Part shown: in pieces, positions 3,674 to 41,990 of the stretch
How positions within the stretch are numbered: the first letter of the stretch is position 1
Layout: each line of letters starts with the position of its first letter
Source: Marispirochaeta aestuarii
GTDB lineage: Bacteria > Spirochaetota > Spirochaetia > JC444 > Marispirochaetaceae
DNA length: 64,000 bases
Reading direction: 5' to 3'
Assembly (NCBI RefSeq): GCF_002087085.1
Contig: NZ_MWQY01000003.1
Span: 1-64,000 of the forward strand
Program-made: the position numbers and the translations under genes
Notes under the pieces: model-generated
Seen by the model: only the letters and a program-made list of their open reading frames with translations
Database searches by the model: none
Told to the model about the DNA's origin: nothing

Positions 3674-5481
<1,808 letters not shown>

Positions 5482-5488
5482 TGAGGGT

Positions 5489-5518
5489 ACTATATCCTAA
5501 CGAGGCCGGTTACTTCAA
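5489..5518 (-). promoter_or_regulatory. lepA promoter, leaderless type
   Basis: On the minus strand TTGAAG (5513-5518), an 18-nt spacer and TATAGT (5489-5494). Seven nt then separate the -10 from the lepA ATG (5479-5481), so transcription should start at or next to the A of ATG. The -35 overlaps the stop codon of the upstream kinase gene. Confidence 0.65.
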
Positions 5519-23725: not shown

Positions 23726-25285
23726 CTAGCCCTGCAGATAATGGCAGCCGATGGACTGTCCGTTGTTAAGGGCTGATCGGGTAACCACAAGGGCGCTGAT
23801 AATTGCATTTCTCAGCTCGACAACGTCCCTGCGCAGCGTGGCAGAACGATAGAAGCGCTCAATTCGGTGGTTAAGGTAGTTCAGGTCCGCAAAGGCCCGG
23901 GAAAGCCTTTTTCTGGTCCTGATTATACCCACATAATTCCACATGGTACTCTGAATCTGGTTCAGATCGCTCCGTATCAGCACCGGATCGAAACTGGTTT
24001 CCCCGGGGGGAGATACCCAGGGGGGTATACTGCGGATAAGACGGTCGGCCAGGTCACTGGAACAGCAGAGAATAGCATCAGCGGTTCGCACCCCGTAGTA
24101 AAGCCCCTCCAGCAGCGATACTGAAGCCAGCCGGTTGGCCCCATGCACCCCGGTACAGGCCGTTTCTCCCACAGCGTAGAGTCCTTCCAGGGAAGTCCGC
24201 CCTTCGAGATCGACCTTTATCCCTCCGCAGGAGTAGTGGGCGGCGGGAACCACGGGAATAAGGTCCTTTCGGATGTCGATATTCACGGCGGCACAGGCCG
24301 CGAATATAGAAGGAAAACGCTCCTTCAAATCATGGTCCCTGATGCCCCGGGCATCCAGATAGACGTATCCCGCCTTGTCCTTTTCTATCTGCCGGTAAAT
24401 TCCCCGGGCAACCTCGTCCCTGGGGGCCAGGTCCTTCAGCCGCGGGGCGTAACGGGACATGAAGTACTCCCCTTCCCGGTTTAAAAGCTTCGCTCCCTCG
24501 CCCCGTACGGATTCGGAGATCAGAAAGCGATCGGAATCCCGGTGAAACAGGGTCGTTGGATGAAACTGTACAAATTCCGCATTTATTATCTCTACGTTGG
24601 CCCTGTACGCCATGGCCATACCGTCACCGACCGCACCCCTGGGGTTGGATGTATGCTGGTAGATGTCTCCCAGTCCCCCGGTGGCAAGAACCACGGCGGA
24701 AGCGAAAACAGGAAGAACCTCACCGCTCTCGTTGTTCAGAAGATACATGCCGAGGGCACGGCTCGGTTTATAGCGAACCTGGTAATCCACGGAATGGTGT
24801 GTCGAGGTTATAATGTCGATGGCCGTGTAATTTGTCAGACGGCTTATACGTTCCTCCGCCTCGGCAGCCCCGGCCAGGTGCTCCATGATCGAGCGTCCTG
24901 TATAGTCGTGAACGTGGAGAATCCGCCGTACAGAATGGGCCGCCTCACGGGTCAGCATATATCCGGATTCATCCCGGATAAAAGGCACCTCTAATTCACG
25001 GGCGAGAAAATCGAGTACCAGATCGGGACCTTCGGCGGCGAGAGTCTCCACGGCCTCGATGCAGTTTATGCCGTCTCCGGCCTCGAGGATATCGTGCTTC
25101 AGCAGTTCTGGGGTGTCCCCTTCCCCCCTGGCGACAATACCACCCTGGGCGTAGCGGCTGTTGCATTCCAGGGGATCCGCGCTTTTTGAAACCAGACAGA
25201 CGTCGGCACCCTTCCGCGCGAGCCGGATGGCCGCACTGATACCCGCTATTCCTCCCCCAATGACAAGGGCATCAAACCGCATCAT
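23726..25285 (-). CDS. nadB: L-aspartate oxidase
   Basis: 519 residues. An N-terminal FAD site (ALVIGGGIAGISAAIRLA), the ARYAQGGI region, FVQFHPTTL and HGANRLASVSLLEGL are typical of NadB in the succinate dehydrogenase flavoprotein superfamily. It oxidises aspartate to iminoaspartate for quinolinate synthesis. The start overlaps the nadC stop as ATGA. nadA (quinolinate synthase), which must complete the step, is not in the window. Confidence 0.95.
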   Translation of the reverse strand: MMRFDALVIGGGIAGISAAIRLARKGADVCLVSKSADPLECNSRYAQGGIVARGEGDTPELLKHDILEAGDGINCIEAVETLAAEGPDLVLDFLARELEVPFIRDESGYMLTREAAHSVRRILHVHDYTGRSIMEHLAGAAEAEERISRLTNYTAIDIITSTHHSVDYQVRYKPSRALGMYLLNNESGEVLPVFASAVVLATGGLGDIYQHTSNPRGAVGDGMAMAYRANVEIINAEFVQFHPTTLFHRDSDRFLISESVRGEGAKLLNREGEYFMSRYAPRLKDLAPRDEVARGIYRQIEKDKAGYVYLDARGIRDHDLKERFPSIFAACAAVNIDIRKDLIPVVPAAHYSCGGIKVDLEGRTSLEGLYAVGETACTGVHGANRLASVSLLEGLYYGVRTADAILCCSSDLADRLIRSIPPWVSPPGETSFDPVLIRSDLNQIQSTMWNYVGIIRTRKRLSRAFADLNYLNHRIERFYRSATLRRDVVELRNAIISALVVTRSALNNGQSIGCHYLQG

Positions 25286-26121
25286 GCTTCAGGTCCTGCG
25301 ATTTTCAGAGAGAAATCGAAATTCTTAACTGAATGGGTCAGTTTTCCCACGGAAATATAATCCAGACCGATCTCCATATACCCGGCAATCTTCTCCAGAG
25401 ACATGTCGCCGGAGGCTTCGAAAGCAACATCTCCTCTTCGCTGCCCCAGGCATTCCGCCGCTGTTTTTGCGTCCATATTGTCCAGCATGATAATATCCGC
25501 CCCCGCATCCAGAGCTTCACTGACCTCTTCGGCATTGCGGCATTCCACCTCTATCCTGTAGCGACTGCCCCATTTGTCCCGTACCATGGAAACAGCCCGT
25601 TGAATGGATCCGGCTGCATCGATGTGGTTGTCCTTGATCATAACCATGTCATAGAGTCCCATTCGGTGATTGGTTCCACCCCCCACTGAAACAGCGTACT
25701 TGGCAAGTTCCCGGTACCCCGGCAGGGTTTTTCGGGTATCCAGTATCCGTGTTTTACCCCGCTGCAGACGGGAAAATTGCTGCGTTACTGTGGCAATACC
25801 GGAAAGATAGCCCAGAAAATTGAGGGCGATCCTTTCAGCAGTCAGGATGGAAAGGGTTGATCCCCGAAGCTCTGCGACGATATCTCCAGGCTTCAGGCTG
25901 TCTCCATCGCTGAACAGGCATTCCACCTGCGTGGACGGATCTATGCGGTGAAATACCCGGGTAAAAAAATCAGTGCCCGCAAGAATTCCCGTATCCTTGC
26001 TGTGCAGCCGGGCAAGGACCTGATCATCCCCGAAAATCGCGCGGGATGTAACGTCCCCCGCCTCGGCGAGGTCTTCTTTTATCGCCAGTTCCAGCAGAAC
26101 CTCAAAGCTTGTCTGTTTCAT
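25282..26121 (-). CDS. nadC: Nicotinate-nucleotide pyrophosphorylase (carboxylating)
   Basis: 279 residues. DTRKTLPGYRELAKYAV, GGGTNHRMGLYDMVMIKDNH and the C-terminal IMLDNM and GLDYISVGKLTHS are quinolinate phosphoribosyltransferase signatures. It makes nicotinate mononucleotide from quinolinate and PRPP. It is the first gene of nadC-nadB. The ATG has ttcgccc directly upstream, so there is no Shine-Dalgarno, and the -10 ends 7 nt before it, which suggests a leaderless mRNA. Confidence 0.96.
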   Translation of the reverse strand: MKQTSFEVLLELAIKEDLAEAGDVTSRAIFGDDQVLARLHSKDTGILAGTDFFTRVFHRIDPSTQVECLFSDGDSLKPGDIVAELRGSTLSILTAERIALNFLGYLSGIATVTQQFSRLQRGKTRILDTRKTLPGYRELAKYAVSVGGGTNHRMGLYDMVMIKDNHIDAAGSIQRAVSMVRDKWGSRYRIEVECRNAEEVSEALDAGADIIMLDNMDAKTAAECLGQRRGDVAFEASGDMSLEKIAGYMEIGLDYISVGKLTHSVKNFDFSLKIAGPEA

Positions 26122-26128
26122 GGGCGAA

Positions 26129-26157
26129 ATAGTACGCTAACTTTATGCTATTTTCAA
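26129..26157 (-). promoter_or_regulatory. nadC promoter, leaderless type
   Basis: On the minus strand TTGAAA (26152-26157), a 17-nt spacer and TACTAT (26129-26134), then 7 nt to the nadC ATG. Its -35 lies 7 bp from the -35 of the divergent cheX promoter. Confidence 0.7.
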
Positions 26158-26164
26158 CTCTCAT

Positions 26165-26194
26165 TTGACTTTTCAAGAATTACCGTCCTATACT
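26165..26194 (+). promoter_or_regulatory. cheX promoter, leaderless type
   Basis: TTGACT (26165-26170), an 18-nt spacer and TATACT (26189-26194), then 7 nt to the ATG at 26202. The 20 bases before the ATG contain no purine-rich Shine-Dalgarno. Confidence 0.72.
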
Positions 26195-26201
26195 GCTTTC
26201 T

Positions 26202-26678
26202 ATGAGCGATTATTTACAGCAGTTTACCGGTGCCCTCAGGGAAGTTGTACGGGAGATCGGTTTTGAAGATACAAGCATTTCCGTGGAGGATATCGATCCA
26301 TCCTCGGTGGAGCTGGTCGCCAGTGTCGGGATAACGGGAGATCTCCACGGCTTCATGATGCTCCGTGCGGATATGCAGAGCGCTCATAATTTCGTCTCCA
26401 AGATGCTCATAAATATGGGCATTGAACCTGAAGAAGAAGAGGGGTTCGGCCAGTTCCACAAGGAGGCTATTGGAGAGATCGTGAATCAGGTTTCCGGTCG
26501 ATCCACCATGATGCTGGCGGATCAGAATATCGACTGCAATATTACTCCCCCCACAATTATCTCGGGGCAGAGTATCTACTCCGACATAGCCTCCTGCGAG
26601 TCCTCCATTTCTCATATTCTGAGTGGAAATTTCGGGAAAATAGGACTTTTTGTAGGCATAAAAAACAGCTCTCTTTAA
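26202..26678 (+). CDS. cheX: CheX-type chemotaxis phosphatase
   Basis: 158 residues, the normal CheX size. GDLHGFMMLRADMQSAHNFVSKML and the phosphatase helix KEAIGEIVNQVSGRS contain the E-x2-N signature of the CheC/CheX/FliY family; IITPPTII-type strands follow (ITPPTIISG). The protein dephosphorylates CheY-P and so resets the chemotaxis signal; CheX is the CheY phosphatase of spirochaetes. It stands apart from the cheA cluster. It is probably transcribed alone, with a leaderless start. Confidence 0.85.
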   Translation: MSDYLQQFTGALREVVREIGFEDTSISVEDIDPSSVELVASVGITGDLHGFMMLRADMQSAHNFVSKMLINMGIEPEEEEGFGQFHKEAIGEIVNQVSGRSTMMLADQNIDCNITPPTIISGQSIYSDIASCESSISHILSGNFGKIGLFVGIKNSSL

Positions 26679-39987: not shown

Positions 39988-41692
39988 AATTTTCTTCCAG
40001 GCTTATCATGTCCGCAAGAATCCTGCGTCCTTCGGAGACAATATGTGACACGGATCCAAGCTCCTTTAAAAAGGCTTCGTTATTACGTCCGCCGATGTAC
40101 CCGAGGTTCGAAAGGGTATCGAAGCGTCCGCCTTTTTCCCCGTGGAGGATTCCCTCCAGTACGGAAGACAAAAGAGATATGTGTTCGAGACCGGTATTCA
40201 GAATGCGCCTGGCCCGCTTGTCCGCATCGACGGCCACTTTGGCGGCTTTTTTCTGCCGCAGGGTTTTGGACGGTACATCGGAAGCTATGGAGACAAGCAG
40301 CCTGCCACCCTCCCCGGCGGGTGCAAGATAATCACTGGGTTCGGATATGTTTTCCGCCAGCAGATGGAGACCATTGTAGGCTTCCGAATAGTCCTCGCTG
40401 TTCTGGGCCTTGTAGAACTCCCCGTCAATCAGCAGCTGTTTGAGCACAATGTTGATCTTTAACGAAAACAGGTGATCCAGGAATTGGGCCAGAAAGGCGA
40501 TCGAACCTTCATGAACAAAGTCCACGGGCACGGGGAGAACGCCCTCCTGATAATACGCCAGGGGCGTAAGTTTCTGTCTGCCGACCAGCAGTTTCGCCTG
40601 ATCCATGGTGCTCTCATATTCCCGGGAGAGCAGATAACGCCGGGCTTCCCCTTTCAGTTTCTGCTTCCAGAAGGAACGAAAAAGTCCGATCCATTCCTCA
40701 CCGGCGGATACGGGTTTCAGAAAAACATTGGCCTTTCCCGAGGCAAGACGAAGGATATCGTAGAGGGGAATGGATCGATAGAAATTCCGTATTCCCCTTA
40801 AGCCCTCGCTTGCCTGGGCTATCTCTTTTTTCAGGTCTTCCAGGACGGAACCGTGGTCGGCCTCCTCCTGGTCGGGCCGGGTCACGATAAAGAGAGATTC
40901 GATAAGGCCCGGCGAAGCGGAACAGTTCATGCTGTGGAAAATCCGCATCAACTGACTCAGGGGTTCCCGAATTTCAGCCGCCGGGCACCCTTCATCCTGC
41001 CCGGCAGCTGCATATTTATTCTTGATCTTTTCATAGGGAAAATAGACAAGTTCACTCAGAATCTGCAGACACCTCGAGTCCTGACTGAGCTTTGACTTTT
41101 CCTCGGGGGTCAATTCAAACAGAATATCTTCGAACTGATTATAGAGCAGCTTTGCCAGCTCCTTTTCGTCATCATTGTCCAATTCGGCGGCGAACTTTTC
41201 CGGGACGCAGGTATCCCGTATACGCTGATCGACATGGGGAAGATCCTGATTGATAATGAGGGCAAAGAGTTCTTCTTTTTTCTGAACGCTAAGACGCGAA
41301 AGAGGCAGCATGAAGACCTGCACCGCTTTTCGCAGCTTTTTTACTTCTTCCAGAAAAGCACCGCTCAGGGTACTTCGGGAATAATCGTAAAGCCCGGGAA
41401 AAGCGGAATCCACCTCATGGTAAATCCGGCGCATTACCGTATCTTCAATTACCTCAATCCTGGTAAGGGGAGTAAAAAGAGTCCTGAAAAAAACGATGAG
41501 CTTCTGGAAAAAGGTGAAGGAGCTGTATTCGCTCTCGAGATTAACCGTCTGGGGTTCATCTTCCAGGGCATGAACCGGTTCCGCTTCACTTTCGAGCATC
41601 TTCGTAAGGCGCACCAGCATGGCCTGGCGTTCTTCCCGGGATAATTCACGAACAAGACGATCGAAGCCGGATGTACCCTGCTCTGCACGCAT
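39971..41692 (-). CDS. Spirochaete conserved protein (DUF5312-like)
   Basis: 573 residues, mainly helical and soluble, without signal peptide or clear membrane helix (FFQKLIVFFRTLF at about 60-72 is amphipathic rather than a full helix). I associate it with the spirochaete DUF5312 family from memory; its function is unknown. It heads the DUF5312-pgeF-argS unit. The ATG has aagctc directly in front, thus no Shine-Dalgarno, and the -10 ends 6 nt upstream, giving a leaderless-type start. Confidence 0.6.
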   Translation of the reverse strand: MRAEQGTSGFDRLVRELSREERQAMLVRLTKMLESEAEPVHALEDEPQTVNLESEYSSFTFFQKLIVFFRTLFTPLTRIEVIEDTVMRRIYHEVDSAFPGLYDYSRSTLSGAFLEEVKKLRKAVQVFMLPLSRLSVQKKEELFALIINQDLPHVDQRIRDTCVPEKFAAELDNDDEKELAKLLYNQFEDILFELTPEEKSKLSQDSRCLQILSELVYFPYEKIKNKYAAAGQDEGCPAAEIREPLSQLMRIFHSMNCSASPGLIESLFIVTRPDQEEADHGSVLEDLKKEIAQASEGLRGIRNFYRSIPLYDILRLASGKANVFLKPVSAGEEWIGLFRSFWKQKLKGEARRYLLSREYESTMDQAKLLVGRQKLTPLAYYQEGVLPVPVDFVHEGSIAFLAQFLDHLFSLKINIVLKQLLIDGEFYKAQNSEDYSEAYNGLHLLAENISEPSDYLAPAGEGGRLLVSIASDVPSKTLRQKKAAKVAVDADKRARRILNTGLEHISLLSSVLEGILHGEKGGRFDTLSNLGYIGGRNNEAFLKELGSVSHIVSEGRRILADMISLEENYARSS

Positions 41693-41698
41693 GAGCTT

Positions 41699-41727
41699 AT
41701 TCTAGGTTATCTGGCTGGACTGGTCAA
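41699..41727 (-). promoter_or_regulatory. Promoter of DUF5312-pgeF-argS, leaderless type
   Basis: On the minus strand TTGACC (41722-41727), a 17-nt spacer and TAGAAT (41699-41704), then 6 nt to the ATG. It is divergent from the ilv leader promoter, whose -35 starts 36 bp away. Confidence 0.68.
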
Positions 41728-41762
41728 GTTCCGCATTTTTTGCCTTTTTTAAAACTTTTTCC

Positions 41763-41791
41763 TTGACAACCCCTGAACATTAGGGTATCTC
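41763..41791 (+). promoter_or_regulatory. ilv operon promoter
   Basis: A perfect TTGACA (41763-41768), 17-nt spacer and TATCTC (41786-41791), then 7 nt to the leader-peptide ATG. Transcription would begin at or beside that ATG. Confidence 0.65.
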
Positions 41792-41798
41792 ATTAACA

Positions 41799-41882
41799 AT
41801 GCTTTTTAATATTCTAAGCCTTATTATTATTCTCCCCATTATTCTGATTATCAGCCCTCAATCGCGGGGAGAATATGCCTAG
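41799..41882 (+). CDS. ilvL: ilv operon leader peptide (attenuation)
   Basis: 27 codons and a TAG. It holds 8 Ile and 5 Leu but no Val, with Ile runs at residues 9-11, 14-15 and 17-18. It ends just before overlapping hairpins and a terminator that precede ilvB. This is the classic layout of ribosome-mediated attenuation: slow Ile decoding should free an antiterminator. The lack of Val suggests Ile, with Leu second, is the sensed amino acid. No Shine-Dalgarno is present at a normal distance (aggg is 13 nt away), so it may be translated from a leaderless 5' end. Confidence 0.85.
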   Translation: MLFNILSLIIILPIILIISPQSRGEYA

Positions 41883-41941
41883 GGCTTTTCAATAGCCGAT
41901 AACAGGCCGTTCTTCCTGCGGGAAGAACGGCCTTTTTTTTT
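41832..41941 (+). promoter_or_regulatory. ilv attenuator: pause hairpin, antiterminator and terminator
   Basis: Pause stem: ctcccc (41832-41837) pairs with ggggag (41866-41871). Antiterminator: gcct (41877-41880) with aggc (41904-41907), plus inner ggct (41883-41886) with agcc (41894-41897). Terminator: aggccgttcttcc with ggaagaacggcct around tgcg/g (41904-41932), then nine T to 41941. The antiterminator takes the 5' edge of the terminator stem, so the two are mutually exclusive. Confidence 0.82.
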
Positions 41942-41990
41942 CAGGGACCCAGAGCGACGGGTTTTCCCATCCGAGAGAAAGGAGCAGTGC

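Follow-up and report, generated by a model that had tools for sequence, protein, structure and literature searches.

Start-Adjacent Divergent Promoters and Probable Leaderless Initiation at nadC, cheX, and Other Genes of Marispirochaeta aestuarii

In the genome of Marispirochaeta aestuarii, the 80-bp gap between the divergent genes nadC and cheX appears to be filled by two sigma-70-type promoters, back to back, and 7 nt lie between each -10 box and the ATG of its gene. The explanation that we favor with considerable confidence is that sigma-70-type promoters of this kind yield leaderless mRNAs beside genes led by a Shine-Dalgarno (SD) sequence. The same architecture is predicted at lepA, at a DUF5312 gene, probably at an ilv leader peptide, and at about one-seventh of divergent gene starts. 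Starts with an adjacent -10 box occur in genome-wide excess, are conserved across families, and tend to exclude SD sites. Coordinates refer to the window, the whole stretch of 64,000 nucleotides analyzed here, which belongs to an assembly of 4.2 Mb in 78 contigs (G000).

Promoter Architecture of the nadC–cheX Pair

The nadC gene (25282..26121, minus strand; PF01729 and PF02749) encodes a quinolinate phosphoribosyltransferase of 279 aa, and cheX (26202..26678, plus strand; PF13690) encodes a chemotaxis phosphatase, CheX, of 158 aa. The two form a divergent pair with a start-to-start interval of 81 bp, and each is promoter-proximal, the first gene of its transcription unit. Upstream of nadC, the minus strand reads ttgaaa-atagcataaagttagcg(17)-tactat-ttcgccc(7)-ATG; the -35 box TTGAAA lies at 26152..26157, the -10 box TACTAT, which matches the consensus at only 4/6 positions, at 26129..26134, and the start codon, with the predicted transcription start, at 26119..26121. 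Upstream of cheX, the plus strand reads ttgact-tttcaagaattaccgtcc(18)-tatact-gctttct(7)-ATG, with the -35 box TTGACT at 26165..26170, the -10 box TATACT at 26189..26194, and the start codon, again with the predicted transcription start, at 26202..26204; these cheX elements are evident both on direct reading and among orthologues, and the -35 box also in the genus alignment. The two -35 boxes are back to back, separated by 7 bp. No SD was found within 20 nt upstream of either start. A preliminary description of this DNA had given the promoters as TTGAAA-17-TACTAT-7-ATG and TTGACT-18-TATACT-7-ATG, both SD-less, and direct reading shows this to be exact to the base.

By established promoter geometry, a sigma-70 holoenzyme whose -10 box lies 6–7 nt away would initiate on the A of the ATG or on the base preceding it. 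Since 7 nt separate the -10 box from the ATG in both genes, their transcription would start at, or within 1 nt of, the A, and because the preceding base is a pyrimidine (C in nadC, T in cheX), the usual preference for a purine favors the A itself. RNA polymerase starting there, at the A of the AUG or within one nucleotide, would produce a leaderless mRNA that leaves no space for an SD, and ribosomes would bind the 5'-terminal AUG without SD pairing. From promoter spacing and conservation we infer precisely where the RNAs of nadC and cheX begin and that their 5'-terminal AUG is translated. Two polymerases on the 81-bp interval would crowd each other upstream, and competition or coupling of nadC and cheX transcription is possible.

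Transcripts might instead begin a few nucleotides before the AUG and carry near-leaderless leaders of 1–5 nt, too short for an SD. We regard this as unlikely: with 7 nt instead of 6 between box and start codon, transcription could indeed begin on the base preceding the A, and ispE in the same window (23683, minus strand) has the arrangement TTGACA-17-TATAAT-11-ATG, with a tandem ATGATG, which would give a near-leaderless transcript with a leader of about 4–5 nt, but the pyrimidines before the nadC and cheX start codons point to the A, as does the class-wide peak in spacing described below, among the matches listed.

Conservation within the Genus and across Families

The divergent nadC–cheX pair is present in two other genomes of the genus; the gap is 80 bp long in G002 and about 77 bp long in G001. 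Between M. aestuarii and G002, none of the 24 bases in the four hexamers differs (the nadC -35 box among them), as against 11 of the 56 remaining bases (P=0.03). Small indels make this ungapped comparison inapplicable to G001. The boxes can be recognized there, as can their distances from the starts, and the -10 boxes read CATACT for cheX and TACTAT for nadC. The nadC -10 box is kept in all three of these genomes and in G017, from another family.

Orthologues of cheX in many families of the class share the start codon and the arrangement TTGACA-(about 17)-TATACT-6/7-ATG. When one sequence was taken per family, a -10-like hexamer was found 5–8 nt before the start of cheX in 8/11 families, of lepA in 7/18, of the DUF5312 gene in 8/19, and of nadC in 7/20. 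Mononucleotide shuffles of the upstream regions, used as controls for the four genes, gave means of 1.2–1.6 (P ~0.0005–0.001 per gene). The start codons themselves could be misassigned, with the true starts downstream and preceded by SD sites. Nothing was found in favor of this very improbable reading, which we rejected: the nadC N-terminus is conserved from its first residues among orthologues, there is no alternative in-frame start close to its assigned ATG, and the cheX start is the one shared among orthologues.

The 68 family-level upstream regions also relate the adjacent -10 box to the SD. An SD occurs in 4/37 regions with a -10 box at 5–9 nt and in 17/31 regions without one (Fisher P=0.00015); lineages lacking the adjacent -10 box thus tend to carry an SD.

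SD-less leadered genes occur in many bacteria. This background (cf. PMC5397173), along with the fact that further promoters could lie upstream within the neighboring gene, would fit a situation in which the adjacent -10 boxes are genuine but contribute little, the main transcription starts lie farther upstream, and SD-less translation of the leadered mRNAs proceeds, for example, via ribosomal protein S1 or low structure. We consider this quite unlikely, as many families conserve the -10 box at a constant distance from the start, and G002 has identical -35 and -10 hexamers amid flanking bases that vary. Leaderless transcription from the adjacent promoters is the reading that we retain.

Genome-Wide Frequency of the Pattern

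The preliminary description had proposed a genome-wide scan for -10 boxes 6–7 nt before start codons as a check, and the excess that it anticipated is present. The strict pattern TTGAC-N17-19-TANNNT-N6-7-ATG matches 52 times in the whole 4.2-Mb assembly, compared to 9 matches when N14-15 separates the same promoter from the ATG and 4 when the pattern is reversed. Promoter-like hexamers could fall near ATGs by chance at moderate G+C, and one site alone would be weak evidence; with the genome-wide counts (52 vs 9 and 4), the class-wide counts, and the orthologue shuffles all standing against it, a chance origin was rejected statistically and its probability is negligible.

Across 41 genomes, comprising that of M. 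aestuarii and 40 others of its class, the totals are 1764 matches at 6–7 nt, 530 at 14–15 nt, and 287 for the reversed pattern. The strict pattern is in excess in 40/41 genomes, the exception being the small genome G021. In the genomes of its family f19 (G021, G043, and G059), which are small members of the class, matches to the strict pattern do not clearly outnumber those to the reversed control. With an independent pattern whose gap was left free at 0–30 nt, the distance from -10 box to ATG peaked at 5–8 nt among the 150 matches listed. In many genomes outside the class but within the phylum, matches likewise outnumber those to the reversed control, which agrees with what has been published on Leptospira. 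In three members of the class (G009, G020, and G026), the whole-genome pattern counts show an excess, and the gene-start samples there are small.

A second set of analyses drew on stretches totaling 855 kb, about 20% of the M. aestuarii genome, in which genes were called with a home-made codon-model finder and starts were chosen blind to upstream signals. All nine strict matches in this sample open reading frames of at least 57 aa; five coincide with independently predicted gene starts, and two more are in frame with one at most 16 codons away. Starts were classed as divergent, co-directional with a gap of at least 60 bp, or operon-internal. An unsupervised EM mixture with free position recovered from divergent genes a TATAAT-like motif with its peak at 6–7 nt; the motifs that it recovered from operon-internal genes were all SD-like or purine-rich. 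With a fixed -10 model at 5–8 nt, the component accounts for 15% of divergent starts (bootstrap 95% 6–25%), corresponding to 38% of SD-less divergent starts, 1% of SD-bearing ones, and 0% of operon-internal starts, and sham windows at other distances gave 0–7%. Samples from two further genomes, G027 and G049, agree with this estimate (20%; 4–38%), while the identical pipeline applied to E. coli K-12 (seven 50-kb stretches, 350 kb) returned 0. A plain count of 5-of-6 consensus matches in divergent genes gave only p=0.0014, for which reason the mixture model and the orthologue tests were added.

Unlike divergent starts, co-directional starts with gaps of at least 60 bp showed no adjacent -10 component in the M. 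aestuarii sample; those with gaps of 30–80 bp showed a weak one. This discrepancy may stem partly from genes or starts missed by the home-made caller.

Coexistence with SD-Led Initiation

The 3' end of the 16S rRNA is GGATCACCTCCTTTCT, with a canonical anti-SD, in the same-genus genome G002 and in G027; a 16S rRNA gene was looked for in the 78-contig M. aestuarii assembly and not found. Given the canonical anti-SD in these relatives, SD-led initiation should be intact and both modes should coexist. The suggestion made earlier, that two modes of initiation operate side by side in this spirochaete, gains support in that SD-led and -10-adjacent starts are nearly mutually exclusive and the E. coli control is negative. 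The analyses thus support the coexistence of a set of putative leaderless starts with an SD-led majority in M. aestuarii.

Additional -10-Adjacent Starts

The preliminary description also listed lepA, the DUF5312 gene, and the ilv leader as operon starts of the same kind. All three examples exist, with two qualifications, concerning the operon position of lepA and the strength of the ilv -10 box. The start codon is ATG in all of them, as in nadC and cheX. The lepA promoter and start (5479..5518, minus strand) read TTGAAG-18-TATAGT-7-ATG; just 33 nt separate the gene (TIGR01393, 996 bits) from a co-directional gene upstream, and its status as an operon start is therefore inferred. The DUF5312 promoter and start, identified by direct reading and from orthologues, occupy 41690..41727 on the minus strand and read TTGACC-17-TAGAAT-6-ATG. 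In its extended form, CTTGACC-17-CTAGAAT-6-ATG (41690-41728), this promoter is unusually conserved in several families (orthologues L163, L164, L166, L168, and L172), whose proteins are only about 28% identical. Elsewhere in the genome, on contig C2, a second divergent pair has starts near 191302 (minus strand) and 191390 (plus strand), 87 bp apart, and a -10 box 6–7 nt before the ATG of both genes.

The third example is a probable ilv attenuator, the whole element spanning 41763-41990 on the plus strand. Its promoter and start (41763..41801) read TTGACA-17-TATCTC-7-ATG, in which the -10 box is weak, the final T being missing. The start opens an Ile/Leu-rich reading frame of 27 aa (41799..41882) that encodes the peptide MLFNILSLIIILPIILIISPQSRGEYA; a terminator hairpin with a U-run follows, and then ilvB. 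The hairpin is strong, the leader region having a fold z-score of -6.0 for a minimum-free-energy structure only. The peptide is kept in the same-genus genomes G002 (MILAIISLIIILPIILIIG...) and G001 (MQVLMNSNIIIILLALIIIG...); in both, a spacer of 17 nt separates TTGACA from TATnnn, and the ATG follows after 7 nt. A short Ile/Leu-rich ORF, a terminator, and a biosynthetic gene thus succeed one another as in an attenuator, and the element is probably a leaderless attenuator leader upstream of ilvB.

A precedent is trpL of Sinorhizobium meliloti, in which the attenuator mRNA begins at the ATG of the leader peptide (PMC7298713). The ilv leader is proposed to have its RNA 5' end at the same place; the S. 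meliloti case differs in concerning a trp operon in an alphaproteobacterium and in having an experimentally mapped 5' end (PMC7298713). The probable leaderless attenuator peptide upstream of ilvB looks new.

Relation to Known Leaderless Systems

Leaderless initiation itself is already known, though little mapped. Zheng et al. 2011 (PMC3160421) reports predicted leaderless genes with an adjacent Pribnow box in 6/18 spirochaete genomes, amounting to 1.8–6.9% of genes (mean 3.9%). In those bacterial leaderless genes, a TANNNT box precedes the start by about 12 bp and, as in nadC and cheX, a start-adjacent -10 box goes with the lack of an SD and a promoter-proximal position; the available part of the paper gives no gene-by-gene conservation for spirochaetes, whereas here the architecture recurs at the same orthologues across families (PMC3160421). 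In Leptospira interrogans, the transcription starts of 430–450 genes have been mapped to no more than 10 nt from the start codon (Zhukova et al. 2017, PMC5243855). This species belongs to the same phylum and likewise has leaderless and leadered genes together, but it represents a different spirochaete lineage, its starts were measured by dRNA-seq whereas ours are predicted from DNA, and no general promoter motif was found in that study, in contrast to the clear TTGACA/TATAAT-like elements found here (PMC5243855). Leaderless mRNAs are also stated to be frequent in Borrelia, in a paper on its ribosome (PMC10618245). Outside the spirochaetes, work on Deinococcus-Thermus presents the -10 region adjoining ORFs as an important way of expressing genes through leaderless mRNA, with promoter-to-start geometry identical to that seen here (PMC12340547); this is another phylum, with a far higher predicted leaderless fraction (mean 39%; PMC3160421).

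The proposal of leaderless starts in a spirochaete is therefore supported, yet it is less new than the preliminary description implied, given these reports (PMC5243855 and PMC3160421). What looks new is the conservation of the leaderless architecture at the same genes across families; a literature search of partial coverage found no report of this for the class.

Implications

One tentative and, in our estimation, unlikely idea is that the Spirochaetia keep an ancient leaderless core (cheX, lepA, the DUF5312 gene, nadC, and the ilv leader), whose promoters stay at a fixed distance from the start across many families because these genes are translated under conditions, or by ribosomes, not shared with SD-led genes. 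More generally, our results indicate that, beyond Leptospira, a class with a canonical anti-SD regularly uses leaderless initiation as its second mode and conserves it gene by gene. Where leaderless genes are conserved, sequence alone suffices to fix promoter positions, and gene-start calling in these genomes becomes more reliable; such genes also form a defined set in which to ask why some remain leaderless beside SD-using neighbors.
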